From the NCBI GenBank assembly GCA_012719595.1, contig JAAYAB010000009.1, forward strand, positions 1 through 37,664: a DNA stretch of 37,664 nt. The letters are read 5' to 3'. The notes below the pieces were generated by a model. That model ran no database searches. It saw only the letters and a program-made list of their open reading frames with translations, and was not told where the DNA came from. This document shows, in pieces, positions 1,292 through 25,854 of the stretch. The translations under genes were made by a program, and so were the position numbers. The first letter of the stretch is position 1. Every line of letters begins with the position of its first letter. Source of the stretch: Bacillota bacterium. Its GTDB lineage: Bacteria > Bacillota > DTU014.

Positions 1292-1651
1292 ACAAGAGCC
1301 GGTGTGGTTCGTCACCAAGTCACCCCCGCCTCACTTCCCACTCCCCACTCCTGTCTCACGCCCTCCGCGCCCTGCGATCCTGACTCGCGTGTCTGCTGTT
1401 CATGTCCAACCGGCCGACTATGGACGCAGGTCGCATTGAGATCATCATCCTCCGCATCGGATTGCTCTCTTCTTTTGCCGCATGGTTCAATCTATGAAAA
1501 TTGTCTCTCAACACTCTGTGCCAGAAGTGGCGTCGTTGCGAAGGAATAAACGCATCGATGTTGAACCATTTAAGAGGCTAAACCATTTTGTCGATTATGT
1601 TTGGCCACTTGATAGGTGCGCATTTTGGAGGCGGCACTCGGAGGGATTTGT
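1292..1651. other. 360-bp intergenic region upstream of the hydrolase operon
   Basis: No credible gene is present. The first part holds a pyrimidine-rich tract (1322-1351) whose complement has several G-runs. The second part is AT-richer and contains two copies of AACCATTT 17 bp apart (1564 and 1581), plausibly a regulator site for the operon starting at 1652. I could not place a convincing sigma-A promoter. The short track ORFs at 1304 and 1482 have no recognisable features. Confidence 0.5.
1564..1588. repeat. direct repeat AACCATTT-N9-AACCATTT, possible operator
   Basis: Two identical octamers, each extended to similar flanks (TTGAACCATTTAAG and CTAAACCATTTTG), lie 17 bp apart and about 65 bp before the start of the first hydrolase gene. 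Tandem sites of this kind are used by AraC-type and some response regulators. No such regulator is encoded in the window, so the function is unproven. Confidence 0.3.
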
Positions 1652-3775
1652 GTGGCGGTTTTTTACGTAGACAGCATGGCTCAAGAAACTTCTGAAAGCA
1701 ACTTCGGGTCGGAGAAAGCTCCCTTTCGGACGATAGGAGAAGCTGTGGACCATCTTCGACCCGGCGATACGCTGTACGTCAAGGCAGGTGAATACTTCGA
1801 ATCATTGCAGCTGACCAAGGGCGGCTCCCGGGAGGCCGGCTATGTCACGATTCGTTCCTTCGGCGATGATACGGTTACACTGACGGGCGCAGTAAGGGTC
1901 GGGACCGAAGGCTGGACGATGCTGTCCGAGGGCACATACGCCTGTCAGATACCTGAACGACTGGACCCATATGCTCACGACAAGTCACGGCCCAGAGCCT
2001 TCTGTAACGGCATGGAGATACCCCTCCGTCAGCAGGTCGTCGAATCCGAGGTCAATCAGCACAATGAGCAGGGTCTCATGGGATTGGATCTGCCGGATGC
2101 CCCTGATGATCCTAGATACTCGCACACTCCGGTAAAGCACTTTGAGATAGACAGGGCCACCAATACGATCACTATCTACTGCCCTGGCTATCATCCTGCA
2201 GAACTCAAGATAGAAGTATCGGTTTTGCGAAGCGCATTCCTCGTCCTGGGGGAGTACTTCCGAATCCAGGGGTTTCGGATCTTCGGGTATGCGGGGGCTG
2301 GCATTCATGTCGAAGCGCCCCACGCTTTGGTGGAGTACAACTACGTGGAGGCGTGTGGCACGGGCATCCTTCTCGCGGACGACGTGTCCTATGAGAGCAT
2401 AGTGCGGAGGAACACCATCATGCGCAGCAGCCAGACCGGCCTTCATTGGAAGAGCCGAGGCTGTACGATCGAGGACAACTCTGTCGTCCAGAGCTGCACC
2501 AACTCAATCATTGACACCTGGAGCGGCGGTCTGAAGTCGAACGCCGGCGGCTGGAGCCTCATAAGAAACAACGTGGTGGTAGGCACCGGAAAGCACAGAG
2601 TCCCTGGATCTTGCCATGCCTGGGGGGCTCTGTGGGGAGACATTCTGGCCAAGTGCAACATGTTGACCGGCAACACCGTTCACGGCAATGAATGGGTCGG
2701 GATCTACGTAGAATGGGGCCAGGACGGTCAACAGATACAGCTCAACACCAGTTCTCGCAACTTCTACGGCCTCTGCTTCAGAGGATCCAACTACGGAGTG
2801 GCCATGCGGAATGTATTCGCTGACAATGTGAACTCCCTCGGCTTCTTCAGTCCGCGGACTGAAGACAACTTCGTGAAGGGAAATGTCTTCATCGGCGGCA
2901 AGAACGCCATGGCCAGAGAGTATCAGCATGACTGGGAAGTGAAGCAACAGCAGACTAACGTAATCGACGATAACGTCTGGGATAGCGCACATAGTTGGGA
3001 CGATTTCACCCTCTTTGAGAGCGCATATGGCAGAGAGATCCGTCGCACTGTCAAGGATGATCCTCGCCCAGGCGATGTGGGACTGAACGTTGTCATCCTG
3101 CGCAACGCTTTCAGCCTAGAGAACGAGGTCATGATGATGGTCGGCAACAAGGACATCAGCCTGTCGGAGCCGGCCAATGAGGTGGTCCCGTACTTCTGGC
3201 GCCCTGGCGTACGCTCGGGTGAGTGCGTACATGACCCCTTGGCCAGGCCTTGCGTAGGCAAAGAGGCAGTGTTCGGCCGCGCCTGGGTTCCGGGGTTCAT
3301 AACAAAGAGAAGCATATCGAATGCCTTCGGACTGGGAAAGGCAGGTCTGGTCGAGTTCGGCGACGGAGCTCTGGGAGTCTTGGGTAACGCCGACGCTGCT
3401 GAGTCTGACAGCCTCTGTGTGGGCTGGTCCTCGCCAAGCCTGCCGATACGGGCAGGCAACAGGCTCCGAGTGTCCCTCACTATGTCGCTTCTGGGCGACG
3501 CCGCAACCTCGAAGGGTAGCGTCGGCGCTTCGAAGGGGCGTATACCGATAGTCGAGGTGCAGTGGGCAAGCGTTACGGGACAGAGGATGTCCAGCACCTC
3601 ATTGCTAGGGCCGGAGGAGGACTATGCTGACAGGGGGAGCTACAGAGTGGATGGCGTGGCCCAGGCTCCGGTTGATCTAGGCAGCAACCTGCGCTTTGTG
3701 GTCTTTCTCGGATGCGGCGGATACACAGGACCAATCAGCTTCACCGACATCAAGATCGAGGATCTGGGCAGATAG
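1652..3775 (+). CDS. right-handed parallel beta-helix protein, predicted cytoplasmic, 707 aa
   Basis: The N-terminus FYVDSMAQETSESNFGSEKA followed by PFRTIGEAVDHLRPGDTLYV matches the YYVDS-x-GxDxNxGTxxxPFxTIxxAv opening that begins the mature beta-helix domain of many pectate-lyase-like proteins. Helix rungs (about residues 150-430) show repeated N-V/I-asparagine ladders such as YNYVEACGTGILL and RNVFADNVNSLGFFS. The last about 150 residues form a separate beta-rich domain. The track starts at GTG 1616, but GGAGGG lies 6 nt before a GTG at 1652, giving MAVFYVDS with no signal peptide. I therefore use 1652. The family includes polysaccharide lyases, C5-epimerases and glycosidases; no catalytic residues can be assigned with confidence. 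It heads a tight operon with three glycosidase-like genes (21 bp to the next), which argues for a role on imported oligosaccharides. Confidence 0.85.
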   Translation: MAVFYVDSMAQETSESNFGSEKAPFRTIGEAVDHLRPGDTLYVKAGEYFESLQLTKGGSREAGYVTIRSFGDDTVTLTGAVRVGTEGWTMLSEGTYACQIPERLDPYAHDKSRPRAFCNGMEIPLRQQVVESEVNQHNEQGLMGLDLPDAPDDPRYSHTPVKHFEIDRATNTITIYCPGYHPAELKIEVSVLRSAFLVLGEYFRIQGFRIFGYAGAGIHVEAPHALVEYNYVEACGTGILLADDVSYESIVRRNTIMRSSQTGLHWKSRGCTIEDNSVVQSCTNSIIDTWSGGLKSNAGGWSLIRNNVVVGTGKHRVPGSCHAWGALWGDILAKCNMLTGNTVHGNEWVGIYVEWGQDGQQIQLNTSSRNFYGLCFRGSNYGVAMRNVFADNVNSLGFFSPRTEDNFVKGNVFIGGKNAMAREYQHDWEVKQQQTNVIDDNVWDSAHSWDDFTLFESAYGREIRRTVKDDPRPGDVGLNVVILRNAFSLENEVMMMVGNKDISLSEPANEVVPYFWRPGVRSGECVHDPLARPCVGKEAVFGRAWVPGFITKRSISNAFGLGKAGLVEFGDGALGVLGNADAAESDSLCVGWSSPSLPIRAGNRLRVSLTMSLLGDAATSKGSVGASKGRIPIVEVQWASVTGQRMSSTSLLGPEEDYADRGSYRVDGVAQAPVDLGSNLRFVVFLGCGGYTGPISFTDIKIEDLGR

Positions 3776-3796
3776 CATAGACAGGAGGCAGTCGCA

Positions 3797-5113
3797 ATGC
3801 AGCACAAGTTCAACCATGAGTACCATCAGTCACTCGTCTATAAGATCATGAATGCCAGGAAGCCTGATGTCGTTCTTGTGACATTCGAGGACTCACTGGA
3901 CATGATCAAGAGGATCCACAAAATGACCGGCGGGTTGAAACAGATTGTCTATTTGACCGGCTGGCAGTATGATGGGCATGACTCCAAGTATCCAGCCTGG
4001 CACGAAGTCAACCACCGCTTGGCTCGACCGCAGGACAAGAGCCCGAGAGACAGCTTTCTCTGGCTCATGCGGGAAGCCAAGAAATACAACGCCTTCGTCA
4101 GCGTCCACGTGAACATGTGTGACGCCTACGAGAACAGCCCTCTCTGGAAGACATACTATGACGAAAACCTCCTGATACGAGACAAGGATGGCAATCTCGT
4201 GAAAGGCGGGGTCTGGGACGGAGATCAGTCGTATCTAGTATCCAAGGCGGCCGAATGGAGGTCCGGAAGGGCGAAGGAGCGTATAGACTATCTGATCGAC
4301 CTGCTGCAGCTGGCTGAAGTGGGTACTGTTCACATCGATGTGTTCCATCCACGGCCGAGCGAGTACCACGGTATCACATATGATGACGATGTGGTCGCTT
4401 GCCAGGAGATACTCAAGTACTTCATATCCAGGGGCGTAGAAGTTACCAACGAGTGGTTTCACCATGAATACGCCGGACTGATGCCGTACGCCTGGCACTT
4501 CAACTTGGATGAGAGAAGCCGGCTCAAGTATCCGCCGTCTGTCATTACCGGCGGGGGTCCCGGGTGTAACCTCAGGTGGGCAAGGAGGCACACAGCTACG
4601 GCTTGGCCGGGCTGGTTTACAGCGCCTGAAGCAGGCTGCCTCTACGAGGACTGCTGGGGAACGTCCATCGATGGCGAACCTACCAAGGACCTCAGGGCAT
4701 TCACCCATGACTTCTTCACTCGTACTCTGCAGTGGCATTTTCTGAACAATCACAGAGTCATAAAGCATGTCCATACCCCACAGGTATATGAGGTGTATTT
4801 CGAGGACGACGTCGTTACATCCATGCGGACCAGCGATAGGCACTTCACCCTCACGCATCAGGGCAGAGTTCTGAGGGAACAGTCTGATCTGCTGATCCCT
4901 GCTCTATGGCTGGATCGGACACTGATGGGATATAGCGAGAACGGATGCACGCGGGAATGGGAACTGTCGGCTGACTGGGCCGACGCCTCACGGGCCAAAG
5001 TCACAACAGTGACACCTGCTGGGAACGAGTCATCTACTCAGGTGCCTGTGGTCAATGGGAAGATCAGGCTGACTCTAGAGCCGCGTCAGGGAGTCATGGT
5101 TACTCCGGCGTAA
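3797..5113 (+). CDS. GH101-like (endo-alpha-N-acetylgalactosaminidase-type) TIM-barrel hydrolase, 438 aa
   Basis: The core resembles the catalytic barrel of family GH101. YLTGWQYDGHDSKYP (about 52-66) corresponds to the GWQxxGHD motif, and FLWLMREAKKYNAFVSVHVN (about 87-106) to the following strand. TVHIDVFH places an aspartate (D181) where GH101 has its nucleophile, and EVTNEWFHHEYAG places a glutamate (E219) where it has the acid/base. The C-terminal segment IRLTLEPRQGVMV looks like the small beta-sandwich that follows the barrel. Classical GH101 enzymes exceed 1,000 residues and are secreted or wall-anchored; this one is minimal, leaderless and probably cytosolic. GH101 releases the Gal-beta-1,3-GalNAc disaccharide from O-glycans, but divergence here is large, so the substrate is open. 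AGGAGG precedes the ATG. A clear paralogue lies at 25835-28465. Confidence 0.75.
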   Translation: MQHKFNHEYHQSLVYKIMNARKPDVVLVTFEDSLDMIKRIHKMTGGLKQIVYLTGWQYDGHDSKYPAWHEVNHRLARPQDKSPRDSFLWLMREAKKYNAFVSVHVNMCDAYENSPLWKTYYDENLLIRDKDGNLVKGGVWDGDQSYLVSKAAEWRSGRAKERIDYLIDLLQLAEVGTVHIDVFHPRPSEYHGITYDDDVVACQEILKYFISRGVEVTNEWFHHEYAGLMPYAWHFNLDERSRLKYPPSVITGGGPGCNLRWARRHTATAWPGWFTAPEAGCLYEDCWGTSIDGEPTKDLRAFTHDFFTRTLQWHFLNNHRVIKHVHTPQVYEVYFEDDVVTSMRTSDRHFTLTHQGRVLREQSDLLIPALWLDRTLMGYSENGCTREWELSADWADASRAKVTTVTPAGNESSTQVPVVNGKIRLTLEPRQGVMVTPA

Positions 5114-5218: not shown

Positions 5219-6853
5219 ATGCCAGTAAATAGATATGCTGTTCAGAACCATGTGACGGAGTGGGGCTATCAGTCTAGCCATGTATATGAAGACCCCTTCA
5301 ACCAGATCGAGATGGACGTTGTCTTCTGCGACGAAGCATCAAGCGAGTGGCGTGTCCCCGCCTATTGGGCGGGAGACAACGAATGGCGCGTTCGCTTCTG
5401 CCCGCCGCATCCTGGCGTCTACCATTATCGGACCGTCTGTACCAACGAGGCCGACAGTGGCCTCCACGGGGTCACCGGCGTCCTATGGGTGGCGGAGTAT
5501 CAGGGAGAGCACCCACTCTACAAGCATGGTCGCCTGCGCGTCAGCGGCGATCGGCGGCGATTCGTGCATGAAGATGGGACGCCTTTCTTCTGGCTCGGTG
5601 ATACATGCTGGTTTCTCCTTTCGTCCAGGCTGCAGTGGCCCGATGAATATCAGCTGTATATACAAGACAGGCAAACGAAGGGCTTCACGGTGATGCAGTT
5701 GGTGGCCGGCTTATATCCAGATGGGGACTCCTTTGACGTCAGAGGCGTCAACGAAGCCGGATTTCCTTGGGAACAGGGATACCGGACGATCAATCCGGCC
5801 TACTTCGATGCCGCAGATGTAAGGATACAGTGGCTGGTGAAGTCAGGAATGGTCCCGTGTATCTTCGGCTGCTGGGGCTTCCTCCTGCTAAAAATGGGCA
5901 TGGAGAAGATGAAGCGCCACTGGAGGTATCTGGTCGCCCGCTACGGAGCATATCCCGTGACCTGGAGCCTGGCCGGCGAGGCCACCATGCCCTATTACCT
6001 CTCAGAGACGCCGGACACTGACAGCCAAGCACTGAAGACGGGTTGGACTGAGGTTGGAAGGTATGTCCGCAGCATCGATCCATTTCATAATCCGATAACC
6101 ATACATGCACCCCACTACAGTGGGTCTCGAGCGCAGGTGGTCGACGAGTCTGTGTTGGACTACGACATGCCACAGCCGGGGCACGGGACGAATGAGCATG
6201 CTCCCCATACAGCGAAGCTCATATCGGAGCTGATCAACACCGAGCCTCACATGCCCGTGGTCAACGGTGAAGTCCTGTACGAGGCCAACTTCGATTCAGC
6301 TTACGGTGGTATTCAAAGGTACGCCTTCTGGACGACGATGCTGATGGGCGGCGCCGGCCATACGTATGGAGCCAACGGGCTCTTCCAGCTAAATCGACCC
6401 GGAGATCCATTCGGACCTTCACCTCACGGGATGCAGTGGGGCGATATTCCATGGACCGTCGCATATAGGTTCCAGGGATCGACCGATGTCGGGATAGGCA
6501 AATCCATACTGGAGAGATACCGGTGGTGGGACTTCGTCCCTCACCCCGAATGGATCGAACCTCATGCCGGCGAGAGGGGTTACAATCTCCCATATGCCGC
6601 CGGGATACAGGGCGAGGTGCGCATGTTCTACTTGCCCGGTCCGATCCATCCTTGGTGCTCTCGACCGGTACTGAAGAGGCTAGACCGAAGCAGGAAGTAC
6701 CGAGTCTTCTGGGTAGATACCACCACAGGCGTTGACACGCCTATAGATGATGTTCGCATCGATGCAGATGGAGATTGGCAGATGCCTCTGCCTCCAGTCA
6801 TGCGTGACTGGATACTGGTGATAGAGGAGGATGACAGGCATGGTAGCACTTGA
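5219..6853 (+). CDS. DUF5060/DUF4038 glycoside hydrolase (GH140-like), 544 aa
   Basis: Three regions are visible. The first is an N-terminal beta-sandwich (about 10-95; NEWRVRFCPPHPGVYHYRTV is typical of DUF5060). The second is a TIM barrel (about 105-420) starting at RRFVHEDGTPFFWLGDTCWF, the signature opening of DUF4038. The third is a C-terminal sandwich (about 440-540) like the putative collagen-binding domain of this family. SLAGEATMPY (E254) and PVVNGEVLYE (E351) sit at the two barrel strands where clan GH-A enzymes keep their acid/base and nucleophile. DUF4038 includes the GH140 apiosidase of the rhamnogalacturonan-II pathway, but most members are uncharacterised. There is no signal peptide, so cytosolic action on oligosaccharides is expected. 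AGGAGGG precedes the ATG. The gene overlaps the next gene by 14 bp, which implies translational coupling. Confidence 0.88.
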   Translation: MPVNRYAVQNHVTEWGYQSSHVYEDPFNQIEMDVVFCDEASSEWRVPAYWAGDNEWRVRFCPPHPGVYHYRTVCTNEADSGLHGVTGVLWVAEYQGEHPLYKHGRLRVSGDRRRFVHEDGTPFFWLGDTCWFLLSSRLQWPDEYQLYIQDRQTKGFTVMQLVAGLYPDGDSFDVRGVNEAGFPWEQGYRTINPAYFDAADVRIQWLVKSGMVPCIFGCWGFLLLKMGMEKMKRHWRYLVARYGAYPVTWSLAGEATMPYYLSETPDTDSQALKTGWTEVGRYVRSIDPFHNPITIHAPHYSGSRAQVVDESVLDYDMPQPGHGTNEHAPHTAKLISELINTEPHMPVVNGEVLYEANFDSAYGGIQRYAFWTTMLMGGAGHTYGANGLFQLNRPGDPFGPSPHGMQWGDIPWTVAYRFQGSTDVGIGKSILERYRWWDFVPHPEWIEPHAGERGYNLPYAAGIQGEVRMFYLPGPIHPWCSRPVLKRLDRSRKYRVFWVDTTTGVDTPIDDVRIDADGDWQMPLPPVMRDWILVIEEDDRHGST

Positions 6854-8549
6854 CATCGCTTCAGTTCCATTCAGTCGATATGGTTCGTATCTCGCCGTGT
6901 CTCGCACGTCAGGGCCGTCCGGTAAGGGACTCTATCTCAGGACTGTCCATGGAAGAGCGATTCCCAGTGAGCTGCTGTTGCTTGAGCCGGTACATGATGG
7001 CTCGCCGATGGGCTATGCTGTGTATGCCAATCCCGACGTGCTCCGCCTGGAGTCCTCCTGTGGCTGGGTAGAGATCTGCATTTCGGAGTCCGACGCAGTA
7101 CGTCTCCGGGGCGAGGGTATAGGCCTGCGCCTCAGTGCGGTGACGACACTCATGGATCCTATCATCCCAATAGGTAAGGGCCCTGACTCCTGGCTTCTGA
7201 ATTTCAGGGTAACCCGGGTGAAGCTGCTGGCATCTATGATGACTGGTCAGGTCACAGTGGGTACCTTCGATGGTGCGACCGGCGGAGTCAGTGAGCAGAT
7301 CTGCTTTGCACCAGAGCAACACACGAACCGGTGGGAAGGCTTCCTCGAGGAGTTCAGCGGAGCGTTCACACTGGCTGCTCAGCAGGAGTCGTTTGAGCAG
7401 TGCCGACGCAAGGCCCATGATGAGTTTGCTGATTGGTTAGCCAAGACACCTGAAGTGCGCGACGGAGTGGACGGAGGTGAAGACCTCGCCGTTGCTCGGG
7501 AGCTGGCCGCGTACGTCAACTGGTCAGCGGTAGTGAGGCCATCGGGAATTCTCAGGCGTCCGGCCATGCTCATGTCGAAGAACTGGATGACGAGCGTCTG
7601 GGCATGGGACCACTGCTTCAACGCCATGGCACTCGCCATGGGTAATCCAGAAGCAGCTTGGGATCAGTTTATGCTTCTCTTTGACTATCAAGATGAGAGC
7701 GGTGGGCTCCCAGACGTGGTCAATGATTGCCAGCCCGCGTGGAACTACTGCAAGCCCCCCATCCATGGTTGGGCCCTAAGGTGGATGATGAAGCACTCCG
7801 AAGCAGTGACTGTCGACAGGCTTCTGGAAGCATATGAGCCGCTATGCAGGTGGACCAGGTGGTGGATGAGCCACCGCGATTACAACAGAAACGGATTCGC
7901 AGAATACACCCATGGTAACGACTCAGGATGGGACAACTCAACAGTGTTCCGTCATGGAGCTCCTGTCGAATCGCCCGAACTCTGTGCGTTCTTGGTACTT
8001 CAGATGGAGACCCTGGCCGAGGTCGCGGCCGTTCTTGGGAAGTCTGAAGATGCAGGCGACTGGCGGACCCAGGCTGAGCAACTTCTCAGGTCCACTCTGG
8101 CTAGGTTTTGGCGGGGAGATAGATTCGTCGCAGTCAAGGCATGGGATGGCGGAGATATCGAATCAGACTCGTTATTGCTGTTCGTGCCGCTGGTTCTGGG
8201 AAAGCGGCTTCCTGAGGATGTCAGACAGACATTGGTGCAGCGGCTGGCTACGGGTGGCTGGCTAACCTCCTACGGCCTTGCGACTGAGCTGCCCACGAGC
8301 GAGTACTACGAGGCCGACGGATATTGGCGCGGCCCTATCTGGGCACCATCCACTATGCTAATCGTCGACGGCCTCGTGGATGCGGGTGAGGATGATCTGG
8401 CGTCGGAGATAGCTCAGAGGTTCTGTCACATGGCAGCAGAAGCAGGCATGGCTGAGAACTTCGATGCATTGACAGGCAAAGGCCTCAGAGATCCAGCCTA
8501 TACCTGGACGTCCAGCACATTTCTGGTGCTGGCGGGCATGTACATCTGA
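6840..8549 (+). CDS. GH63/MGH1-like (alpha/alpha)6-barrel glycoside hydrolase, 569 aa
   Basis: A beta-sandwich N-terminal half (about 1-190) precedes an (alpha/alpha)6 barrel. Barrel motifs are WAWDHCFN (254-261), GGLPDVV (288-294), EYTHGNDSGWDNS (355-367), YWRGPIW (495-501) and AENFDALTG near residue 540. This is the pattern of the mannosylglycerate hydrolase-like/GH63 C-terminal domain, related to trehalase and amylo-alpha-1,6-glucosidase. By analogy with characterised GH63 members, D361 in GNDSGWD and E539 in AENF would be the catalytic pair. These are inverting exo-acting alpha-glycosidases. The track begins at ATG 6831, but AGGAGG abuts that codon; the in-frame ATG at 6840 has a 9-nt spacing, so I chose it. 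No leader peptide is present. It is the last gene of the four-gene plus-strand operon. Confidence 0.85.
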   Translation: MVALDIASVPFSRYGSYLAVSRTSGPSGKGLYLRTVHGRAIPSELLLLEPVHDGSPMGYAVYANPDVLRLESSCGWVEICISESDAVRLRGEGIGLRLSAVTTLMDPIIPIGKGPDSWLLNFRVTRVKLLASMMTGQVTVGTFDGATGGVSEQICFAPEQHTNRWEGFLEEFSGAFTLAAQQESFEQCRRKAHDEFADWLAKTPEVRDGVDGGEDLAVARELAAYVNWSAVVRPSGILRRPAMLMSKNWMTSVWAWDHCFNAMALAMGNPEAAWDQFMLLFDYQDESGGLPDVVNDCQPAWNYCKPPIHGWALRWMMKHSEAVTVDRLLEAYEPLCRWTRWWMSHRDYNRNGFAEYTHGNDSGWDNSTVFRHGAPVESPELCAFLVLQMETLAEVAAVLGKSEDAGDWRTQAEQLLRSTLARFWRGDRFVAVKAWDGGDIESDSLLLFVPLVLGKRLPEDVRQTLVQRLATGGWLTSYGLATELPTSEYYEADGYWRGPIWAPSTMLIVDGLVDAGEDDLASEIAQRFCHMAAEAGMAENFDALTGKGLRDPAYTWTSSTFLVLAGMYI

Positions 8550-8698: not shown

Positions 8699-9640
8699 CT
8701 ACTCAACCAGCCCCGTCCTCTCAACGCTCTCGACGAAGTACTTCTGAAGCACTGCGTAGAGTATCAGCACCGGCGCGATGAACATGACCATGGCTGCATT
8801 GCTTACGAAAGACTGGAGCACTTGGTTGGGCTGAAGCCCTGCGTGCTCACGGACGAAGTAGTTGACATACGCGCCCGTAACTCCAAGCATCTTGTTGGGC
8901 AGGAACGACGCATCTTTCAGGTAAAGGCCGGTGTAGAAAATGTCATTCCACTGCCAAACGACCGAAAACAGGAAGACGATCATGAGCCCCGGCTTGGCGT
9001 TTGGCAGCATGACGCTGAAAAACGCACGATAGGGGCTAGCTCCATCGACGTATGCAGCCTCTTCGAGGCTTGACGGCATCCCTCTGAATATCTGGCGCAT
9101 GATGTATATGAACAACCCGTTTCGGAATGCCGTGGCAGTCGACGACGTCAGGATAAACGGCCAGTACGTCCCGATGAGGTTAATCGGCTTATCCAGCAGA
9201 CCAAAGAGGCTGAAGAAACGGAAGTTGAGGAACATCGGTATCATTATTATGTGAGGTGGAATCAGCAAGACGAGGATGATCAACGCAAACACCAGGTTCT
9301 TCAGGGGGAAATCAAACCTCGCGAGTCCGTACCCCACGAGCGTACATGACATCAACTGCAGCACGCCGGTGATCAGCACGAGCATAGTCGACTTGCCGAA
9401 TGCGGTCGGATAGTCCATGCTTCGAAACGCCATCTTATAGTTCTCGAGTGTCGGGTTCCGCGCTATCCACTGGACAGTCCGGTCGAATATATCGCTCTGC
9501 TGCATAACCGATGTAGCTATCTTGCTGGCTATAGGTCGTAGTATGATATACGATACAGCGATTATGACTGCTGTTCTTACGAGGCTCCCCAGTGCCACCT
9601 CAGGTGAGCGCCACCCAGTGAGCCTTTTCAAAGTGCTCAT
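8699..9640 (-). CDS. carbohydrate ABC transporter permease, MalG type
   Basis: This inner-membrane permease of about 313 residues has six predicted hydrophobic segments. The cytoplasmic EAA loop reads EEAAYVDGASPYRAFFSVML, which fits the EAA---G---------I-LP consensus that docks the ATPase. The large loop before it and LEXYXXAFR-like ENYKMAFRSMDY are typical of CUT1 MalG proteins. The track starts at TTG 9646, but AGGAGG is placed 7 nt before the in-frame ATG at 9640, which I prefer. It is the last gene of the minus-strand operon, 23 bp after its partner permease, and forms the second of two permease pairs. Confidence 0.9.
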   Translation of the reverse strand: MSTLKRLTGWRSPEVALGSLVRTAVIIAVSYIILRPIASKIATSVMQQSDIFDRTVQWIARNPTLENYKMAFRSMDYPTAFGKSTMLVLITGVLQLMSCTLVGYGLARFDFPLKNLVFALIILVLLIPPHIIMIPMFLNFRFFSLFGLLDKPINLIGTYWPFILTSSTATAFRNGLFIYIMRQIFRGMPSSLEEAAYVDGASPYRAFFSVMLPNAKPGLMIVFLFSVVWQWNDIFYTGLYLKDASFLPNKMLGVTGAYVNYFVREHAGLQPNQVLQSFVSNAAMVMFIAPVLILYAVLQKYFVESVERTGLVE

Positions 9641-9663
9641 GCCCAATCCTCCTCAGGCCCAGA

Positions 9664-10575
9664 CTACTGCTGATAGAAGACGTGTTTGGATACCAGCTTC
9701 AGGGATAGAGCGAGAACCAATGCTACAGCCGCGAAATACATCCATGCCATGGCCAAGCTGCCTCCGAAACCGGCTCCCGACCACATGTTGGCCTCGACCA
9801 GCCTGATCACACCATTCGTAGGCGCCGTAAACGAGTCGATCATCACATACACGATGTTCGTCGGCAGAAGCGGGGTGATTAGCGGGAAGGTGATCTTCCA
9901 GAAGCTCTCCCAGCTAGTCGCGCCCTCGATGTCCGAAGCTTCGTAGTACGACTGAGGAATCGACTGCAATCCCGCCAAGAAGATGAGAATCGGTATCCCT
10001 GATGCCGACACTATCTGTGGAATGCGATCCACTGCAAAGGCTACGTAGTTGAGCAGATCCTGCGGAAGCCGCATTGCCATCATGAACTGTCTAGCTGCAA
10101 TACCCAGTGTTCCCATCTGCCTCATCTCCTGGAGAGTCTGATCGACTAGTCCTGTGGCATAGTCCACCTCCTCGAGGCGGGTGAGCACTCCGGAAGTGAT
10201 GATCACCGGCAGGAAGAAGATCATCCTCGCCATCGCACGACCTCTGAACTTCTGATTGAGAAGAGCAGCCGCCAAGAAGCTGAAGACCAGGATCAACGGA
10301 AGCTCAGTTAGAGTCTGTGCGATCGTCCCTGTAAAGGTCGGCATAAACGCAGTGTCCACGAGGAGAGCGCGGCGGTAGTTCTCCCACCTGATGAACTCCA
10401 GCTCATATCCATTGGATGTCACTCTGAGCTGGTTGAACGTGAAGACTATCGACTGCACCAGAGGATAGAGGCAGAAAAGGAGGAAACCTATTACGAACGG
10501 CGATATAAACACCAGTCCGGCTATGGCCCTTCGACGCTTGATGGACATTCGAAAGATCCTCTTGTCAGTGCGCAT
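9664..10575 (-). CDS. carbohydrate ABC transporter permease, MalF type, with enlarged extracytoplasmic loop
   Basis: The protein has 303 residues, with an N-terminal GLVFISPFVIGFLLFCLYPL first membrane segment and an EAA loop YYEASDIEGATSWESFWKIT followed by FPLITP. Between FFLPVIITSGV and the next membrane segment (ASGIPILIFLAGLQSI) lies an insertion of about 60 residues (RLEEVDYATGLVDQT...), longer than in ordinary MalF/UgpA permeases. From memory, this insertion is also found in permeases that accompany DUF5696 and YIP1 genes in other bacteria. Its start overlaps the end of the DUF5696 gene by 11 bp, showing translational coupling. AGGGGGT lies 7 nt upstream of the ATG. It pairs with the MalG-type gene downstream. 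Confidence 0.88.
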   Translation of the reverse strand: MRTDKRIFRMSIKRRRAIAGLVFISPFVIGFLLFCLYPLVQSIVFTFNQLRVTSNGYELEFIRWENYRRALLVDTAFMPTFTGTIAQTLTELPLILVFSFLAAALLNQKFRGRAMARMIFFLPVIITSGVLTRLEEVDYATGLVDQTLQEMRQMGTLGIAARQFMMAMRLPQDLLNYVAFAVDRIPQIVSASGIPILIFLAGLQSIPQSYYEASDIEGATSWESFWKITFPLITPLLPTNIVYVMIDSFTAPTNGVIRLVEANMWSGAGFGGSLAMAWMYFAAVALVLALSLKLVSKHVFYQQ

Positions 10576-13279
10576 CGTGGTTACCCCCTTGATACACTGC
10601 GAAATCCATGGCCGCCACCCTCACATCGCCGATAACCACATCCTTGCGACCGTAGTTGACCAGTACTCTCGTTCCATCCTCGTATGTCGTTTCGTAGACG
10701 TCGTCCATTACCTTTCTATGGCCCACTATCCGCTGGTCTTGCACCTGTCCTAGCAGTGCGTTGACCTGTTCGTACAGTTGCGCCGCCTCTTCCAGCCAGT
10801 CACGATATCCAGCACCGAACAGGTAATTGAAAGGAGTGTCCTTCACCACTGATGGGCTGCTAAAGAAGAGCTCATAATGGAGACTGGCTCCAGCCTCGAC
10901 GGATTGGAGGATGCTTCGTCTGTAGTCACCCGCCAAGTTCACTGGCTCGCCAGCATAGGGTATGTAGCCGTGCAGCACGATCGGATAGAAGGGAACGCTT
11001 TCATCCAGAAGGTTACTGGAGGAACAGCTCAGGGGCATATCTACTACCACGTCTGCGTATGGCAAAGCATACGCATTCACGCCGCTCAACATGAGGCTCA
11101 TCCCTGAGTCTACGCGTAGACGCTTGAGCTGCTCTTCCATGATCTGTCTCGACTGCTGCCTGTCAATGAGCAACTGAGGATCTTCCCTGAAATCCGAGCT
11201 AAGTTGCTGTCCGAGGAACCTAGGTGAAAGGGCATCGATACCATACCCGCGATAGCTGGGCAGGAAACTGTCAATCAGGTCATCGACAAGCCCAGGAGAC
11301 AGCACGTATCGGCCCATCCCATCGTCATCGATGGTAGCTACCATTCGATCGGGACGCCTAGCTGATGAGCCTGAGACTGTGAAACCATCGAACAGGCTAG
11401 TCACATAGACGTTGATCAGACTGATATCCGGATAGAAACTCATTCCTCTAGCTTTGAGATAGTCCCTCAGTCTGTCGAATTCTGCTCGTCCGCCAAGTAC
11501 TGGCTCCAGATGTACCTTGCTTGGGTAGTAATGGCGAATGCCCCCCTTGGTCCAGCCCAGGTACTCTAGCTGGATGTTGCTTACCCCTGCAGCACTCAGC
11601 TCCTCCACAATCTGAATGGCCTGCTCATAGGTGGTCACCGGCACAGCTATGTTGCGAACGATGCCGAAAACAGAGCGCCTGGCAGTGATGGCTCCTACCA
11701 CCTGAAGGAAGAAGGGGAGATCTTTGCTGACTGGCTTTTTCGTCAGTGCTCCGCGCTCTAGCAGGTAACTTTGGTAGTGATGGGCCATCCCCACGTAGTC
11801 GGCGTTCTCGCCTTCCAAGAAGGCGTATCGAACTCTGATATCTCCTTGATACATTCGGCTCTGATAAACGTTGATCTGGGCGGCTCCCCATCCTTCATGC
11901 CCTGTCGTCTTTGCGATGGACGTCTTGCCATTGGGAGTGACAGTGAACGCCCCATAGACTGACTTGAAGCTGCTGGATACATCGGCGACAATTCGGGCCA
12001 GGGCGTCGCCATCCTCGATGATGGCGAAGAACGCGGAATCGCCTCTCTTCAATCCGAAAACCGGAAGATATGCCTGCACCTTTTCGGCCGCATCCTTGAC
12101 CGGATCTACCAATCGTTTCTGCCACGCAGGGCCAATATCGAGATTGGCCATATCGAGGCCGTAGACCCTTATCCCGTACTTCGATGCCCCCGCCCGATCG
12201 ACGAAGCGGAGCAGAGCGCCGGGGCCATCTGGCACGAAGGCATAGCCTTGCTCTTCCTTGGTTCCGCAACCGAAATACGGAAGAACGTTGATCTCCGACA
12301 AGGGAAGGTGGGTCGCTTTGACTTTGAACGCCGCACTCGATCGAGTTATCCATGCTTCCTGATCTACGAAGGGATATGTAACATCCGACACTGGTATCCT
12401 GACTACGAAATCGTCTCCATCTATGGCATATTCGATAGACACGCCGAAGACCTCGAGGCTGCGGCTGGGTCCTTTCAACCCATATCTCTCATGCTCCTCG
12501 GTGACACTCTGAGGGGTGAATCCCGCTGATTTGAACGCCTTTATGACTCGGTTTAGTGTAAAGGCCGGTATATCGTTCATCACATAGGTAGGCGTATCGA
12601 CGAGGCCCCTGATATGGCCCAGCGTCACAGCCTCGGTACTAGGAACGCCGTCGCTCCAATCTCTCACATAGCGCAGGAGAGCCCAGAGGGCAGTTGTCGT
12701 CTTTGCCTTGGGGTCAGATGAGACGACCTTGTATGGTCCTAGCAGCTTCTCAATGTTCAGCCCAGAGATCTCCACTGGAGGTTCAGATCCCCGATCCACC
12801 AGACTGATCTCTGTGTAAGCGTCGAGCACCGCCTTCTGATCAGAGCTGCTCAGCTGCGAAATGACTTCATTCATCCGCTCAGCGGAGATGACCACTGGGA
12901 CATAGTCTGCGTCCTTCCACTCTCGTCCGATCCTATAGTCGACACGGACGCCTCCGTCGATGTCTGTCACCTCAAACTGGCCATACGGTACACTGTCCTT
13001 GCTGGTGTTCATGACTAAGAGCTCGTCGACCTGATTCCAATAGGAGATCGACAGGGCAGGCTGCCCTGGAGGGTTCGAGTACCAGGTACGACCGGTTCTC
13101 TTATCGTGGACGGCCACGTCCGTGTTTGTGCGATCGATATAGAGGGCGAGTGTATCGCCCTCTGCAACCATATCCATGCTCGCTAACCTTGCATCGACTG
13201 GCTGCTGGGCAGCGGCGGAGCGGCCTGCCAAAGCCAAGATGACAAGCACCATGAAGAGGATCCTCTTGCGGACGCCCAT
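10565..13279 (-). CDS. secreted DUF5696 domain protein, glycosidase-like, 904 aa
   Basis: A clear signal peptide (RKRILFMVLVILALAGRSAAAQ) is followed by an N-terminal half rich in beta structure (about 30-500; GRTWYSNPPGQ, ALLRFVDRAGASKYGIRVYG). The C-terminal half resembles a TIM barrel (about 530-850): NIQLEYLGWTKGGIRHYYPS, GMSFYPDISLINVY, GYGIDALSPRFLGQQLSSDF and SGVNAYALPYADVVVDMPL. The end, YETTYEDGTRVLVNYGRKDV, is the small sandwich commonly found after glycosidase barrels. The layout matches DUF5696 proteins that sit beside sugar ABC transporters. The overall shape is glycosidase-like, but I know of no biochemical proof and no catalytic residue can be assigned. With SPase I cleavage after the AAA region it should act in the periplasm or outside. 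ATG 13279 has GGAGGG 9 nt upstream. It lies between YIP1 and the second permease pair. Confidence 0.82.
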   Translation of the reverse strand: MGVRKRILFMVLVILALAGRSAAAQQPVDARLASMDMVAEGDTLALYIDRTNTDVAVHDKRTGRTWYSNPPGQPALSISYWNQVDELLVMNTSKDSVPYGQFEVTDIDGGVRVDYRIGREWKDADYVPVVISAERMNEVISQLSSSDQKAVLDAYTEISLVDRGSEPPVEISGLNIEKLLGPYKVVSSDPKAKTTTALWALLRYVRDWSDGVPSTEAVTLGHIRGLVDTPTYVMNDIPAFTLNRVIKAFKSAGFTPQSVTEEHERYGLKGPSRSLEVFGVSIEYAIDGDDFVVRIPVSDVTYPFVDQEAWITRSSAAFKVKATHLPLSEINVLPYFGCGTKEEQGYAFVPDGPGALLRFVDRAGASKYGIRVYGLDMANLDIGPAWQKRLVDPVKDAAEKVQAYLPVFGLKRGDSAFFAIIEDGDALARIVADVSSSFKSVYGAFTVTPNGKTSIAKTTGHEGWGAAQINVYQSRMYQGDIRVRYAFLEGENADYVGMAHHYQSYLLERGALTKKPVSKDLPFFLQVVGAITARRSVFGIVRNIAVPVTTYEQAIQIVEELSAAGVSNIQLEYLGWTKGGIRHYYPSKVHLEPVLGGRAEFDRLRDYLKARGMSFYPDISLINVYVTSLFDGFTVSGSSARRPDRMVATIDDDGMGRYVLSPGLVDDLIDSFLPSYRGYGIDALSPRFLGQQLSSDFREDPQLLIDRQQSRQIMEEQLKRLRVDSGMSLMLSGVNAYALPYADVVVDMPLSCSSSNLLDESVPFYPIVLHGYIPYAGEPVNLAGDYRRSILQSVEAGASLHYELFFSSPSVVKDTPFNYLFGAGYRDWLEEAAQLYEQVNALLGQVQDQRIVGHRKVMDDVYETTYEDGTRVLVNYGRKDVVIGDVRVAAMDFAVYQGGNHDAH

Positions 13280-13294: not shown

Positions 13295-15493
13295 CTACAA
13301 CCTGAATGTGATCTCTCTGTAGATGCCAGAGAGCAGACCCACCATTTCTCCGCATACGCTGAAGAGCGTAAGGGCGATGAACAGGAACGTACCTATACCG
13401 ACCACCGTAACCGCTCCGGTCAGGAGCGTCTTGACCCCGCTATACTCATGCACGTTCATCATCCCAAAGAAGAGAAGGATGATTGACCAGATCAACGATC
13501 CGACTATCATGATGTGATAGTAGGTCCCCTCTTGCAGAGTCATGTAGTTCGACAAAAACGTAGCCGGAAGGCACAGGAGTATCACCGGTGTCAGAGCGTA
13601 GGCAGTCGTGACGTACACGTCCTTGAGTGTCCCCTTTCCGTCGGTAAGGGTAGTCAAGGCCCAGTTCACGACCACCCACAGTCCAAACGGCACCAGTACG
13701 CTCATGATCTCCACACCCAGATTGAGCCTGGATACATCGTGATAGGTGAAAAGAAAGCCTGAATACTGACGCAGGTAGATGTATGTGGCTACGACCAGTG
13801 CAAGGATGACCGTGGCTCCTGACGCATTGCCCCTCTTCTCATGCTTGAGATCCCAGAATCCGTCCATGGGATGGAAAATCACGTATAGTGCATAGCTCAC
13901 GCAGGCGTATGTCTGAGCTGCCCAGGCCAGGACTTCACGGGCAGCTCTTGCGGTTCTCCCCTCGCCGCGGCGGAGCCAGAGAGTAGCTCGCTGTGCCGAT
14001 GCGCTCCTTCGAAGGGGATCGAGCAGCCATCTTCGGATAAGGGTCCCCCCATGATACCTCTTCGCCAGCGACGTGGCTATGACCAACAGAACGAAGCCAG
14101 TCATGATCATGCTGAAGTGATCGGTGATGGTGTCTGCTCGGTACTTCGAATACGCATATGAGTAGTCTTTTCTGTTGTACCCAAGTCTGAAGTTGGCCAT
14201 AGCTTCGACGTATCTTGCCTGACGAAGCAACGATCTTCCGATGCCGCTGTACGCCTGGTCATAGTTGACGTTGAAGCGCAAGACAGTCTCCCAGGCGTCA
14301 GCCGACAACTCATACTCTCCCATTTCGTAGAGCTCTATGGCTGCGTGAATCGCCCTCTGGTATTCCGTAGGGCCGAAAAGCGTGAGCTTCGATGACCGTC
14401 TGTCCAGGACCAAGATATCGTTCCCCAGACTATCGATGGCCACCGGATCGCGGAAGGCGCCTATGGAGTCACCGATGGTGCCGAACGTATATAGGAGATT
14501 CCCGTTGGAATCGTAGGTAAAGACCCGGCCGTGCGATGATAGGGCGCTGTAGATCCCCACCTCTCTGGCAGCGATATCCACCCACGTAGTTCCGCCAGCA
14601 GTGAGGGTGACGATCCCCTGTTCTCGGCTTACAGAGCTGACCACAAAATCCCCTATGGGATCGAAGAAGCCGTTTCTGACCAGCACGTCACTTCCGCCCG
14701 GATTCAGCCGCTTGATTTCTGAGGCTGTCGCCGCCATCATGAAACCCTCGTGGTCTATGTCGAGCGTGACATACTCGACAGGCAGGATCAGGGCCGATTG
14801 CTCACGCTGCTCCTTGGTGAACAGCCTACGCCAAAAGATCTCCGCTACGCTGGGCGTGACCTTTGGGGCGCCGACAAACCCCTGGAAATTCCCCTTCTGA
14901 TCGAACTCGAGCAGGCCGTCATAGGCATCAAGGGACACCACATAGATCTGGCCCAGCGGGTTGACTACCACCTTGATTGGCCTGTATTGGAAGTTCGCGG
15001 GCAGGATTCCCTCAGTCTTGGGACTCGGGGGTCCGTAAATCCTCAAGAGGTTTCCATGCCTATCGAGGATCACCAGCCGCGCATTCCCGGTGTCAGCGAC
15101 GTAGATCTCCCCTTCGTCTGTCACGAAGAGACCCCTTGGGTTCCTGAACCTGTCGGCACTGCCGGAGTTGTCAAACTCGGAAATCACCCGCACAAGGCTG
15201 CCATCCTCGGTCAGACACAGTATGCGACTGTTGCCCGTGTCCAGGACATAGATCGTCCTATCGCTCCCAACGACGATATCCTGGGGATCCTTTAGGGCGC
15301 CCGCTCCCACGCTGTTCAAATCCAGTACCCTCAAGGGCACGTAGGCCTGAGGAGCCGGCACGGCTTCTCCCCAGATGTTGTAAGTGTAGCTCGGATATGG
15401 TATACCGGCGCAGGTCGGCGCGGCGGTGCCAACAGTCAATGCCGAGAGCGAGAGCAAGGTAATCGCAATCAACTTGTTGATCGATAGACGCAC
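13295..15493 (-). CDS. NHL-propeller/TPR/Yip1 multidomain membrane protein, 732 aa
   Basis: A signal sequence or anchor (LIAITLLSLSALTVGTAAPT) precedes repeated NHL/six-bladed propeller motifs between about 50 and 390: DPQDIVVGSDRTIYVLDTGN, NPRGLFVTDEGEIYVADTGN and DPVAIDSLGNDILVLDRRSS. A TPR-like stretch (about 395-460, AIELYEMGEYELSADAWETV) comes next, then a membrane helix (about 468-490) and a five-helix C-terminal Yip1 domain (about 560-725). Topology suggests an extracytoplasmic propeller tethered to a polytopic domain. Propellers of this kind bind glycans or proteins, TPRs bind partners, and bacterial Yip1 function is unknown. The start is GTG 15493 with GAGGTG about 7 nt upstream. It lies 32 bp after one permease and 15 bp before DUF5696, strongly implying that it works with the transporter. 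Confidence 0.85.
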   Translation of the reverse strand: MRLSINKLIAITLLSLSALTVGTAAPTCAGIPYPSYTYNIWGEAVPAPQAYVPLRVLDLNSVGAGALKDPQDIVVGSDRTIYVLDTGNSRILCLTEDGSLVRVISEFDNSGSADRFRNPRGLFVTDEGEIYVADTGNARLVILDRHGNLLRIYGPPSPKTEGILPANFQYRPIKVVVNPLGQIYVVSLDAYDGLLEFDQKGNFQGFVGAPKVTPSVAEIFWRRLFTKEQREQSALILPVEYVTLDIDHEGFMMAATASEIKRLNPGGSDVLVRNGFFDPIGDFVVSSVSREQGIVTLTAGGTTWVDIAAREVGIYSALSSHGRVFTYDSNGNLLYTFGTIGDSIGAFRDPVAIDSLGNDILVLDRRSSKLTLFGPTEYQRAIHAAIELYEMGEYELSADAWETVLRFNVNYDQAYSGIGRSLLRQARYVEAMANFRLGYNRKDYSYAYSKYRADTITDHFSMIMTGFVLLVIATSLAKRYHGGTLIRRWLLDPLRRSASAQRATLWLRRGEGRTARAAREVLAWAAQTYACVSYALYVIFHPMDGFWDLKHEKRGNASGATVILALVVATYIYLRQYSGFLFTYHDVSRLNLGVEIMSVLVPFGLWVVVNWALTTLTDGKGTLKDVYVTTAYALTPVILLCLPATFLSNYMTLQEGTYYHIMIVGSLIWSIILLFFGMMNVHEYSGVKTLLTGAVTVVGIGTFLFIALTLFSVCGEMVGLLSGIYREITFRL

Positions 15494-20809: not shown

Positions 20810-22141
20810 TCAGTTGAACTCCTCGTCCAGCATGGCCTGAACTACTGGTGCCTTGGCATTGAGCCCGGCAGCTGGGCTGGCCATATCGACATCGCTCAAA
20901 ACGCCGAAGTAGTGCATAGAAGCATGAGCATCGACCTTCGAGTCGACGAGCTTCATCATCTCCAGAGTCTCTTCGTCTCTGATGTTGAACTTAGCCGCCC
21001 ACGCCATCCAAGCATCTTCGAGACCAGTCTCAGGATCTATGTAAGGCACGGTGAGCTTGAACAGGGCATTGGCTACTTCTATCTTCGCTCTGGGGTTCTT
21101 GACACCCTTCGGGATGATGAGCCCGAACATACGAGATCCGTCAATGGCGTAGTCATCTGAGTAGATGCTGTCAACATTCGGTCCCATCGGAGGAGGAACT
21201 ACGCCGAAGTCGTCCTCGATTTCGAAGACGATTGGATAGTCGAGCATCTCGACGTGCTCAACCATCCTCATGGCGATTTTGCCCTGCTTCCAAACTGAGT
21301 GATTCTCATGGAAGCCCTGGGGAGCCATGGCCTCGCCTATGTTCAAGATCTCATTGGCAATGCGGACACCCTCGATGAAGGCTGGCTCATTGGCGGTGTA
21401 TACCAGCTTCCCATCGATCTCACGCACGGCGCGTCCGCCATTGGTTGCGATCGGAGGAATCTGCCCCTCAGGAATCCAGAATCCCCACTGATCGATCTCG
21501 CCATCGCCGTCCGTATCCTTGGTGGCCAGGTTGGCGATCTCAATCATCTTGTCCCATGTCCACTCGTTGTTCTCGACTAGCTCATAGAGGTTGGGCAGGC
21601 CCTCTCTCTCGAAGAGGGTCTTGTTCCACATGACGACACGGCATGCCGCCGGCAGCAGCTGAGCAGGGAATAGGACAGTCTGTCTACCGAACTTCGCCCA
21701 CTTCTCCGGATTCTGAGCCAAGCCGATATTGGGATATCTCTGCCAGAACCCTTCCTCAACGAACTCTTCAGCCGGAGTGGAGAACTCAACGAATCCGAAT
21801 CCCTTCATGAAGGAGCTATGCCAGATCAGGATATCGTTAGGCTCGTCACCGGCGAGGATCGCTTGCTTCTCCTCATCAGATGCAGGCCAGGCCTTGGGAT
21901 TCTTGAACTCGATCTTGCAGTTGAACATCTTCTCGACTTCTTCTTTCCACGCCTTGCCTTCGCCATCCTGGAACTGACCAAAGAACAACTGATACCATCC
22001 ATCCCAACCTACGACGAACGACACAGTTTCTCCACCGAGGTCGAATTTCGGATACTCCTCTGCCTGGACAAGTGCGGCCATCGACGTCACAAGAATTACG
22101 CACAGCCCAATGGTGACAATTCTTCTCAGAGATCCTCCCAT
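20810..22141 (-). CDS. extracellular solute-binding protein, sugar ABC transporter, 443 aa
   Basis: A signal peptide (RRIVTIGLCVILVTSMAALVQA) ends at an A-x-A-like site without a lipobox cysteine. The mature protein has normal family 1 length. Features include NDILIWHSSFMKGFGFVEF, VVMWNKTLFEREGLPNLYEL, NEWTWDKMIEIANLATKDTD and a calcium-loop-like DTDGDGEIDQWGFW. Aromatic residues in the N-terminal GWDGWYQLFF and later WGFW suit sugar stacking. It is the first gene of the minus-strand operon and probably the most highly expressed; AGGAGG lies 10 nt before the ATG. Two binding proteins with two permease pairs suggest either two importers or one system with alternative receptors. No ATPase gene accompanies them. 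Confidence 0.88.
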   Translation of the reverse strand: MGGSLRRIVTIGLCVILVTSMAALVQAEEYPKFDLGGETVSFVVGWDGWYQLFFGQFQDGEGKAWKEEVEKMFNCKIEFKNPKAWPASDEEKQAILAGDEPNDILIWHSSFMKGFGFVEFSTPAEEFVEEGFWQRYPNIGLAQNPEKWAKFGRQTVLFPAQLLPAACRVVMWNKTLFEREGLPNLYELVENNEWTWDKMIEIANLATKDTDGDGEIDQWGFWIPEGQIPPIATNGGRAVREIDGKLVYTANEPAFIEGVRIANEILNIGEAMAPQGFHENHSVWKQGKIAMRMVEHVEMLDYPIVFEIEDDFGVVPPPMGPNVDSIYSDDYAIDGSRMFGLIIPKGVKNPRAKIEVANALFKLTVPYIDPETGLEDAWMAWAAKFNIRDEETLEMMKLVDSKVDAHASMHYFGVLSDVDMASPAAGLNAKAPVVQAMLDEEFN

Positions 22142-23941: not shown

Positions 23942-25854
23942 GACGGTTTCCACGACTGGTCATGTCTGTGCTGACGGCAAGTCTGCTGATTTGTCCAGTT
24001 GGCTCCGATTCTCTGGCAGAGGAGGCTCTACCTATGCGTGTAATCGATGTGACATCGTACGGGGCCGACGGCAGTGATGAACTCGACGACACCGCGTCGA
24101 TACAGAGTGCCATCAATGCCGCCGCAGCCGGAGACACTGTCTACTTTCCCGCAGGCACGTACATCGTGAACCAAGGTACGGTCAGCGATGGAATAGGCCT
24201 GAAATCTGGCGTGAACCTCCTGGGCGAAGACGGTGCCGTGCTGAAAGTGACAGTCGACAACAAGCGGGCCCTCTGCATAAACGGACAGACCAACATCGTC
24301 ATCGACAATCTGAAGTTCATGGGTAAAGGACTGCGCATATATGGCGGTTCCAGCTATATCACTATTCAGAACTGTGAGATGGAGGAAGTCCGAGGCACTT
24401 GGCCATACAGCCATGCCGTCATGATAAACGAGAACGTGCATCACTGCTACTTCCTGAACAACTACTTCCACGATAGCGGTGAGATATTCATGTGCTGGGA
24501 CATCAAAGACTCAGAGTGGATAGGCAACTTCTTCGAACGAACCCATGAGCCGATCCACACTGTAGGCAACTCCACGGGCAACAAGTACATACGGAACAAG
24601 ATCTACTACTACAGCCGAATAGGCATAGAGATCCAAGACAATGCTACCGGAAACATCTTGGAGGGCAATGATATCCGCTATGAGCTGGACCCTGAGGGGT
24701 GTTACGCCATTTCCTTTGCCGCTCCATACACCCACAATGCGCTCATCAAGAACAACATCCTCGTCGGTGGCCGGACACGAAAGGCATACGCTGACGGAAA
24801 CTGGGGAGCAGCAGTAGAAGTCATGGGACAGGTGACAGTAGAGAACAACATCATGATAGACTTCCAGCACGGGTGTCAGGTGAGCACCGGCTATAGTCTT
24901 GATCGAGATTCGCCGATCATTGGTGGGCCGATCATCAGAAACAACTTCATGAGAAACCAGTCTGAGTGGGGGATCTGGAAGACTCACGTGACTGACCTGA
25001 TGCACATGAAGATAGAGGGGAACTTCATTGAGAATGCTCAGAAAGACGGCATATTCATCAACCGAGACCATAACCCAGGCATCGAGATCACAGGAAACAT
25101 GATTGTTCGAGACGCGGGGCACTGGGAGGGAGATGCCGTCCGCCTGTACTCTGGCATCAAGCTCCAGCAGAATGCGGAGACGCCTGCCAACTCCGTTACG
25201 GACAACTACATCTTGCTGCGGTCAGACTCGATGCCGAGTGGCTTCAGCTTCTATGGCGTTTATTTCTCACGCGGCAACACCTACGCTCCCTCTTTCGCCG
25301 ACGTTGTGGTAAAACGAAACCGGATAGTCTGCAGGGCGGTGCAATCAGAGGATGTGGATCCACGACTCTCAGCCAAACCTACCGGCATCTCCTATGATAC
25401 CTATGGGTCGATGAAGTCAGTTGCCTTTGTAGACAACTACTTCGAAGGTCTGGGAATAGTCATGAAGCCCGGAAGGGCCGGAGACTTCATCGCAACGGGG
25501 AACGTCAGCCTCGACTGCCCTGATCCAGGTCAGGAAAGGATCATTTCAAATGAGACTGCGAACAGAATGCCCGCAGTCGATGCCGGTGCCGATCAGGTCG
25601 TCACATATCCAGACAAAGTAGAACTGGCTGGTGCTGTGGTCGATGACGATGAACACCTTGAGGTGCGTTGGGAGAAGTTCATCGGAGTCGGAGATGTCAC
25701 CTTCGAAGACGATTCAGCACTCACCACGACAGCTGCTTTCTCCCATCCTGGATGGTACGTGCTGAAGCTGTCAGTGGATGACGGCGAGCACAGGCCATGG
25801 GATACTGTGTTGATCCAAGTGGAGGGACCACGGCATGTACATAGACGAGACTGA
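23938..25854 (+). CDS. secreted pectate lyase-like beta-helix protein with C-terminal PKD-like domain, 638 aa
   Basis: A signal peptide (RRFPRLVMSVLTASLLICPV, predicted cleavage near SLA-EE) is followed by MRVIDVTSYGADGSDELDDT, the typical start of the pectate lyase superfamily (Pectate_lyase_3/GH28-like) fold: YGADGxxxDDTxxIQxAI with GDTVYFPAGTYIV. Asparagine-rich helix rungs run to about 530 (IQNCEMEEV, NKYIRNKIYYYS, IEGNFIENAQKDGIFI). The last about 90 residues (PAVDAGADQVVTYPDKVELA, then WYVLKLSVDDGEH) form a PKD-like sandwich. The likely role is extracytoplasmic cleavage or binding of an acidic or pectic polysaccharide, but no lyase residues can be assigned. It overlaps the upstream DUF362 gene by 4 bp and the downstream GH101-like gene by 20 bp, so the three are one translational unit. 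Confidence 0.85.
   Translation: MRRFPRLVMSVLTASLLICPVGSDSLAEEALPMRVIDVTSYGADGSDELDDTASIQSAINAAAAGDTVYFPAGTYIVNQGTVSDGIGLKSGVNLLGEDGAVLKVTVDNKRALCINGQTNIVIDNLKFMGKGLRIYGGSSYITIQNCEMEEVRGTWPYSHAVMINENVHHCYFLNNYFHDSGEIFMCWDIKDSEWIGNFFERTHEPIHTVGNSTGNKYIRNKIYYYSRIGIEIQDNATGNILEGNDIRYELDPEGCYAISFAAPYTHNALIKNNILVGGRTRKAYADGNWGAAVEVMGQVTVENNIMIDFQHGCQVSTGYSLDRDSPIIGGPIIRNNFMRNQSEWGIWKTHVTDLMHMKIEGNFIENAQKDGIFINRDHNPGIEITGNMIVRDAGHWEGDAVRLYSGIKLQQNAETPANSVTDNYILLRSDSMPSGFSFYGVYFSRGNTYAPSFADVVVKRNRIVCRAVQSEDVDPRLSAKPTGISYDTYGSMKSVAFVDNYFEGLGIVMKPGRAGDFIATGNVSLDCPDPGQERIISNETANRMPAVDAGADQVVTYPDKVELAGAVVDDDEHLEVRWEKFIGVGDVTFEDDSALTTTAAFSHPGWYVLKLSVDDGEHRPWDTVLIQVEGPRHVHRRD

Follow-up and report, generated by a model that had tools for sequence, protein, structure and literature searches.

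The gene and its surroundings

The window, by which we mean the whole 37,664-nucleotide stretch analysed, carries on its forward strand a gene for a compact sugar-cutting enzyme of 438 residues related to the giant GH101 strippers of mucin sugars (Table 1). The open reading frame begins with ATG, and the N-terminus of its product has no hydrophobic stretch: the highest 10-residue mean is 1.45, compared to 1.9-3.1 in relatives with signal peptides. Because this N-terminus aligns with the starts of independent relatives that also lack a leader (MNYRHEYHQ, MSKFRHAYHQ and MAKPAYRHQYHQ), no upstream domain has been cut off, and the compact architecture is genuine. The earlier note on this DNA had read the frame in the same way, as 438 residues with no signal peptide. 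Its two sequence features were also recovered: the GWQxxGHD-like motif is GWQYDGHD (residues 55-62), and the catalytic residues it named, D181 and E219, lie within VHIDVFH and VTNEWFH and are present in all 36 rows of the alignment of relatives.

Table 1. Features of the window around the 438-residue glycosidase gene. Residue numbers refer to the 438-residue protein unless SpGH101 is named; AF2, AlphaFold model.
Feature	Position	Strand	Basis
Right-handed beta-helix protein, gene immediately preceding the GH101-like one	1616-3775	+	Pfam NosD/Beta_helix
Ribosome-binding site AGGAGG of the GH101-like gene	3783-3788	+	Sequence reading
GH101-superfamily glycosidase, compact, leaderless, 438 aa, clade Q	3797-5113	+	Pfam, PDB phmmer and profile, AF2, Foldseek, tree
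YHQSLVYK, barrel strand 1, in the place of the GH101 VDWQD motif	3821-3844	+	Family alignment and secondary structure; equivalence by eye
GWQYDGHD; D62 = Asp658 of SpGH101, first D of the DDE triad	3959-3982	+	Invariant GHD in alignments; PMC10949244, PMC11861894
H104-V-N106 = His694/Asn696 substrate contacts of SpGH101	4106-4114	+	Alignments; PMC10949244
Lid motif GGVW: first GH101 lid Trp missing, second (W140) kept	4205-4216	+	Alignment
D181, predicted catalytic nucleophile, end of beta4	4337-4339	+	36/36; aligned with GH101 nucleophile
E219, predicted acid/base, strand beta5	4451-4453	+	36/36; aligned with GH101 acid/base
C-terminal beta-sandwich, residues 321-438, equivalent of Glyco_hyd_101C	4757-5110	+	AF2; PF17451 14.8 bits; hhalign
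DUF5060 + apiosidase-like (GH140-type) glycosidase, no obvious leader	5219-6853	+	PF13204 209.7 bits, PF16586 56.6 bits
MGH1-like glycosidase, no obvious leader, recurrent clade Q neighbour	6831-8549	+	PF22422 196.8 bits; linkage
Two ABC sugar-importer permeases, convergent with the glycosidase genes	8699-10575	-	PF00528 in both ORFs
DUF5696 protein, signal peptide, convergent with the glycosidase genes	10565-13279	-	Pfam
732-aa protein: NHL-type repeats, helical-repeat stretch, multi-helix membrane part	13295-15493	-	By eye
ABC solute-binding protein fused to a long N-terminal region, 1015 aa	17576-20623	-	
Probable solute-binding protein of the importer region, signal peptide	20810-22141	-	Sequence reading; no Pfam match
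Second GH101-superfamily protein, 876 aa, no leader, clade P	25835-28465	+	PF12905 61.4 bits; tree
SIS isomerase, zinc dehydrogenase, DRL-type oxidoreductase with SAF domain, FGGY kinase, then RpiR-type regulator	28749-33290	+	

Beyond the glycosidase genes, the fusion seen in the 1015-residue solute-binding protein is unusual for an importer component, and the gene for the 732-residue repeat protein sits inside the transporter gene set. The catabolic genes towards the far end of the window may process the sugar that is released. The genome has exactly two matches to the Pfam GH101 model PF12905, both of them inside the window.

Family relationships and predicted fold

By sequence, GH101 is the nearest characterised family. 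PF12905 covers residues 30-223 and scores 75.4 bits (cut-off 25), the match to the beta-sandwich model of GH101 (PF17451) is weak, and the sole PDB sequence matches found by phmmer are EngBF (9e-11) and pneumococcal GH101 (1e-8). A profile of 35 family members (A3) retrieved pneumococcal GH101 from the PDB at 3.7e-31, EngBF at 4.7e-26 and GH129 at 1e-4. When the family was scanned member by member, PF12905 was matched by all 35, and PF11308, the Pfam GH129 model, was absent from the families matched. An hhalign comparison with five giant GH101s gave 7.7e-36, the alignment extending through the C-terminal sandwich. Identity to GH101 over the barrel is about 22-27%, and the NCBIfam SpGH101 model scores the protein at 57 bits where 2900 are required; by the NCBIfam standard it is therefore not of the SpGH101 type.

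The AlphaFold model built with A3 predicts a barrel followed by a beta-sandwich with high confidence (pLDDT 93.7, pTM 0.93). In Foldseek, the top 15 PDB matches to this model consisted entirely of GH101 chains and engineered fusions of GH101 (E ~1e-24, TM ~0.7 by query length), followed by GH129 at 5e-14 and amylases at 2e-11. The overall rmsd to GH101, 6-7 A, reflects differences in domains and loops. In the model D181 ends strand beta4 (177-181) and E219 lies on strand beta5 (215-220). Catalytic residues occupy strands 4 and 5 in GH13 barrels. The predicted placement of D181 and E219 fits the GH13-like barrel reported for GH101 (PMC8106489). The earlier note had allowed that these residues might fall away from the barrel centre, or that another family might match better; the model sets them on beta4 and beta5, respectively, and GH101 came out best by sequence, profile and predicted fold. 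It is hardly credible that we are seeing a coincidental TIM-barrel match to a protein with the function of another family, such as GH13 or GH31. GH13 amylases and GH31 do occur far down the match lists, but GH101 is ahead of the amylases by ~13 orders of magnitude in Foldseek and of GH31 by ~30 in the PDB profile search.

GH129 deserves closer attention. Its members (NagBb, 5WZN; the GH129-like 3,6-anhydrogalactosidase 5OPQ, which lacks one of the NagBb catalytic residues) have a related barrel, and the catalytic domain of NagBb has been described as similar to GH101 (PMC8106489). Unlike the 438-residue protein, they are ~640 residues long and have an N-terminal sandwich. Our enzyme could be an exo-acting alpha-N-acetylgalactosaminidase on Tn-type residues like this bifidobacterial one, given that GH129 is second-best in both fold and profile and that an open lid would suit cytosolic exo action. 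We consider this unlikely, because the sequence link is weak (1e-4), the Pfam GH129 model went unmatched in the member-by-member scan and we identified no catabolic genes specific to GalNAc in the window. Moreover, the Zobellia GH129-like enzyme cleaves 3,6-anhydro-D-galactose (PMC5698469); the superfamily thus changes specificity, and GalNAc should not be assumed for the 438-residue enzyme.

DUF5696 (PF18952) gives a profile-profile match of 7.8e-27 over the barrel, which places it in the GH101 superfamily. It differs from the 438-residue protein in being secreted here, in its large N-terminal region and in an acid/base position that is not conserved, being Ser in the copy in the window and some relatives and Glu in others. 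Planctomycete matches of 640-660 residues that we first read as GH129 proved by Pfam to be mostly DUF5696, a domain of which our literature search found no mention.

Scanning 84,980 species genomes returned 37 family loci, in Planctomycetota, Lentisphaerae, Kiritimatiellae, Verrucomicrobia, Bacteroidales, Paenibacillus, Nonomuraea, Armatimonadetes and Clostridia. The nearest relatives of our protein come from two MAGs, one from Planctomycetota (51%) and one from a lake (49%). Its lineage was established with a maximum-likelihood tree built on 84 barrels, which places it in a 34-row clade (clade Q; support 99/99) that spans at least seven phyla and is apparently an unstudied branch. Clade Q lies outside the giant GH101s, which make up a 26-row group of their own on a long branch (100/100). 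This separation is well supported; we are unsure of the order among the deep branches, owing to some long branches and a root that was not inferred. A3 survey scores are likewise bimodal, at ~330-580 bits for the family and ~55-114 bits for the giants. The second GH101-superfamily protein of the window belongs to a different branch, clade P, with Armatimonadota, Planctomycetaceae and Paenibacillus (93/89). Clade P shares with the 438-residue protein the PF12905 match, Tyr65, Asp109 and the catalytic Asp and Glu, and differs from it in its large N-terminal domains; the clade P protein of the window retains a W-x-W lid (KGWIW), unlike the 438-residue one.

Among 399 genomes of its own phylum, only this one and one with a giant exceeded the PF12905 cut-off, a near-absence suggesting that the clade Q gene was probably acquired laterally. 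Two sub-threshold matches in the phylum (G177 and G219) were dropped as seemingly unrelated, since they lacked a match to the family profile in the corresponding loci (L006/L007). No relatives were found in viral contigs scanned with the single protein, and tblastn against plasmids returned giant GH101s only, which served as outgroup. One record labelled as a Pseudomonas aeruginosa plasmid (L011, NZ_CP151545.1) carries a giant Gram-positive-type GH101 gene that looks foreign or mislabelled. In Verrucomicrobia, Phycisphaera and Cryptobacteroides (L032, L037 and L020), clade Q genes occur in tandem or near-tandem pairs.

A conserved catalytic set in an altered first subsite

To interpret the active site we took the roles of GH101 residues from PMC10949244, PMC11861894, PMC8106489 and PMC12550630. 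The DDE triad of SpGH101 (Asp658, Asp764, Glu796) is present as D62, D181 and E219, and its HxN contacts (His694, Asn696) as H104 and N106. D62, D181, E219 and R162 are invariant in the family, while H104 and N106 are each found in 34 of 36 rows. Since the patterns used in the scan are confined to residues 35-42 and 55-62, the conservation of D181 and E219 does not stem from the way the relatives were found. Loss of the acid/base does occur in this superfamily, as the Ser of the DUF5696 protein in the window indicates, but with Asp, Asp and Glu invariant in every one of the 36 family rows it is very improbable that our protein is a catalytically dead or purely binding relative.

With the characterised GH101 enzymes (SpGH101, 5A55-5A5A; EngBF, 2ZXQ; POGases) the protein has in common the barrel and beta-sandwich, GHD, HxN, the DDE triad and the second lid Trp. 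The giants alone exceed 1000 residues, are surface-bound or secreted, and have the WxW lid, VDWQD, His661 and extra substrate-shaping domains; our protein has no leader and a single lid Trp. Where the giants carry the double-tryptophan lid (W-x-W, GWDWLDQ) it reads GGVWDGDQ: the first Trp is present in 0 of 18 clade Q rows compared to 14 of 14 giants, and most clade Q rows retain the second (W140 here). The position of His661 is Tyr65 here, Tyr or Phe throughout clade Q (18/18) and His in all 14 giants. In place of VDWQD, clade Q has YHQxxxxK, an equivalence drawn by eye. The Glu that follows HxN in the giants is Asp109 in clade Q, His replaces Tyr two positions ahead of the nucleophile, and Gly288 follows a Trp where the giants have Gln868 (equivalence by eye). 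The residues that shape the outer subsites of SpGH101 lie partly in outer domains (E1253, D1254; PMC12550630), and this region has no counterpart in the 438 residues.

Taken together, the replaced lid, His and strand features and the absent outer domains suggest that the first subsite keeps the catalytic machinery and not the full core-1 grip. A core-1 O-glycan is probably not the substrate, going by the residues present, and the active site lends such a substrate no support. The protein could nevertheless be pictured as a miniature true GH101 endo-alpha-N-acetylgalactosaminidase that frees Gal-beta-1,3-GalNAc from imported glycopeptides: its nearest characterised family is GH101, the triad, HxN and second lid Trp are kept, and a Phycisphaera relative has M60-type peptidase, GH20-like and sulfatase genes nearby. 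The lost first lid Trp, the Tyr at the His661 position, the replaced VDWQD, the Gly equated with Gln868, the missing E1253/D1254 region and the place of clade Q outside the giants make this quite improbable. The GH101-like assignment of the earlier note therefore stands at the level of the superfamily and does not extend to GH101 proper: the protein belongs to a sister clade with several active-site features replaced and, strictly speaking, is no GH101 enzyme.

Location, partners and proposed function

Location was called by a heuristic check of start sites and hydrophobicity. Compact leaderless relatives of ~410-460 residues occur in Planctomycetota, Lentisphaerota, Verrucomicrobiota, Paenibacillus and gut Clostridia, whereas signal or lipoprotein peptides are found in Tannerella, Cryptobacteroides, Muribaculum, Nonomuraea, some Paenibacillus and Kiritimatiellae. 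The exported forms nest among leaderless ones inside clade Q, so location has changed more than once and leaderlessness does not define the clade. The proposal of a cytosolic subfamily consequently holds in part: among the nearest relatives, those whose starts are clear have no leader, yet secreted and lipoprotein forms share the clade. The narrower description that fits is a GH101 sister clade that looks cytosolic in this and several other bacteria, and we infer a cytosolic location for the enzyme here.

The MGH1-like gene of the window is the only strong one in its genome, and such a gene lies within 10 kb of a clade Q gene in 6 of 12 genomes compared to 0.31 expected (P 1.5e-7 under random gene placement, a value that overstates the link because carbohydrate genes cluster generally). 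Other neighbours vary by locus (GH78, GH95, GH42, GH20-like, sulfatase, alpha-galactosidase, M60 peptidase, heparinase-like), which argues against one fixed substrate.

We think it likely that the protein is a retaining alpha-glycosidase of a GH101 sister clade, cytosolic here, that trims ABC-imported oligosaccharide with its leaderless neighbours. Its predicted architecture has just two of the units of GH101, a distorted (beta/alpha)8 barrel and, after it, a beta-sandwich. By homology, it would work by double displacement, with D181 at the end of strand 4 as nucleophile and E219 on strand 5 as acid/base, and D62, H104 and N106 would complete the first subsite. The neighbouring ABC transporter would import an oligosaccharide, and the enzyme would trim it in the cytosol in a presumed partnership with the apiosidase-like and MGH1-like enzymes encoded just downstream. 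Since the first lid Trp, the active-site His and the outer GH101 domains are missing, it would probably remove a single alpha-linked residue or short unit from the oligosaccharide and not whole core-1 disaccharides from glycoproteins.

Because clade Q proteins match PF12905, they could be annotated as mucin-type endo-alpha-N-acetylgalactosaminidases despite several differing substrate-binding residues, and caution is needed when mucin degradation is predicted from PF12905 matches in rumen or environmental genomes. It is tempting to speculate, and quite possible although we would not yet count on it, that clade Q is a new GH family, its members being retaining alpha-glycosidases of two domains, often in the cytosol, that arose alongside GH101 and have MGH1-like partners and a new specificity in the first subsite. 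Clade Q would then represent the GH101 active site in a naturally minimal form. A GH101 active site cut down by design to 290 residues did fold, but showed no activity that could be measured (PMC10949244); clade Q is a natural two-domain solution of ~420-450 residues, with its catalytic set conserved across phyla. Its members thus provide small starting points, and a direct test of what the outer parts of GH101 do for catalysis as opposed to core-1 recognition.
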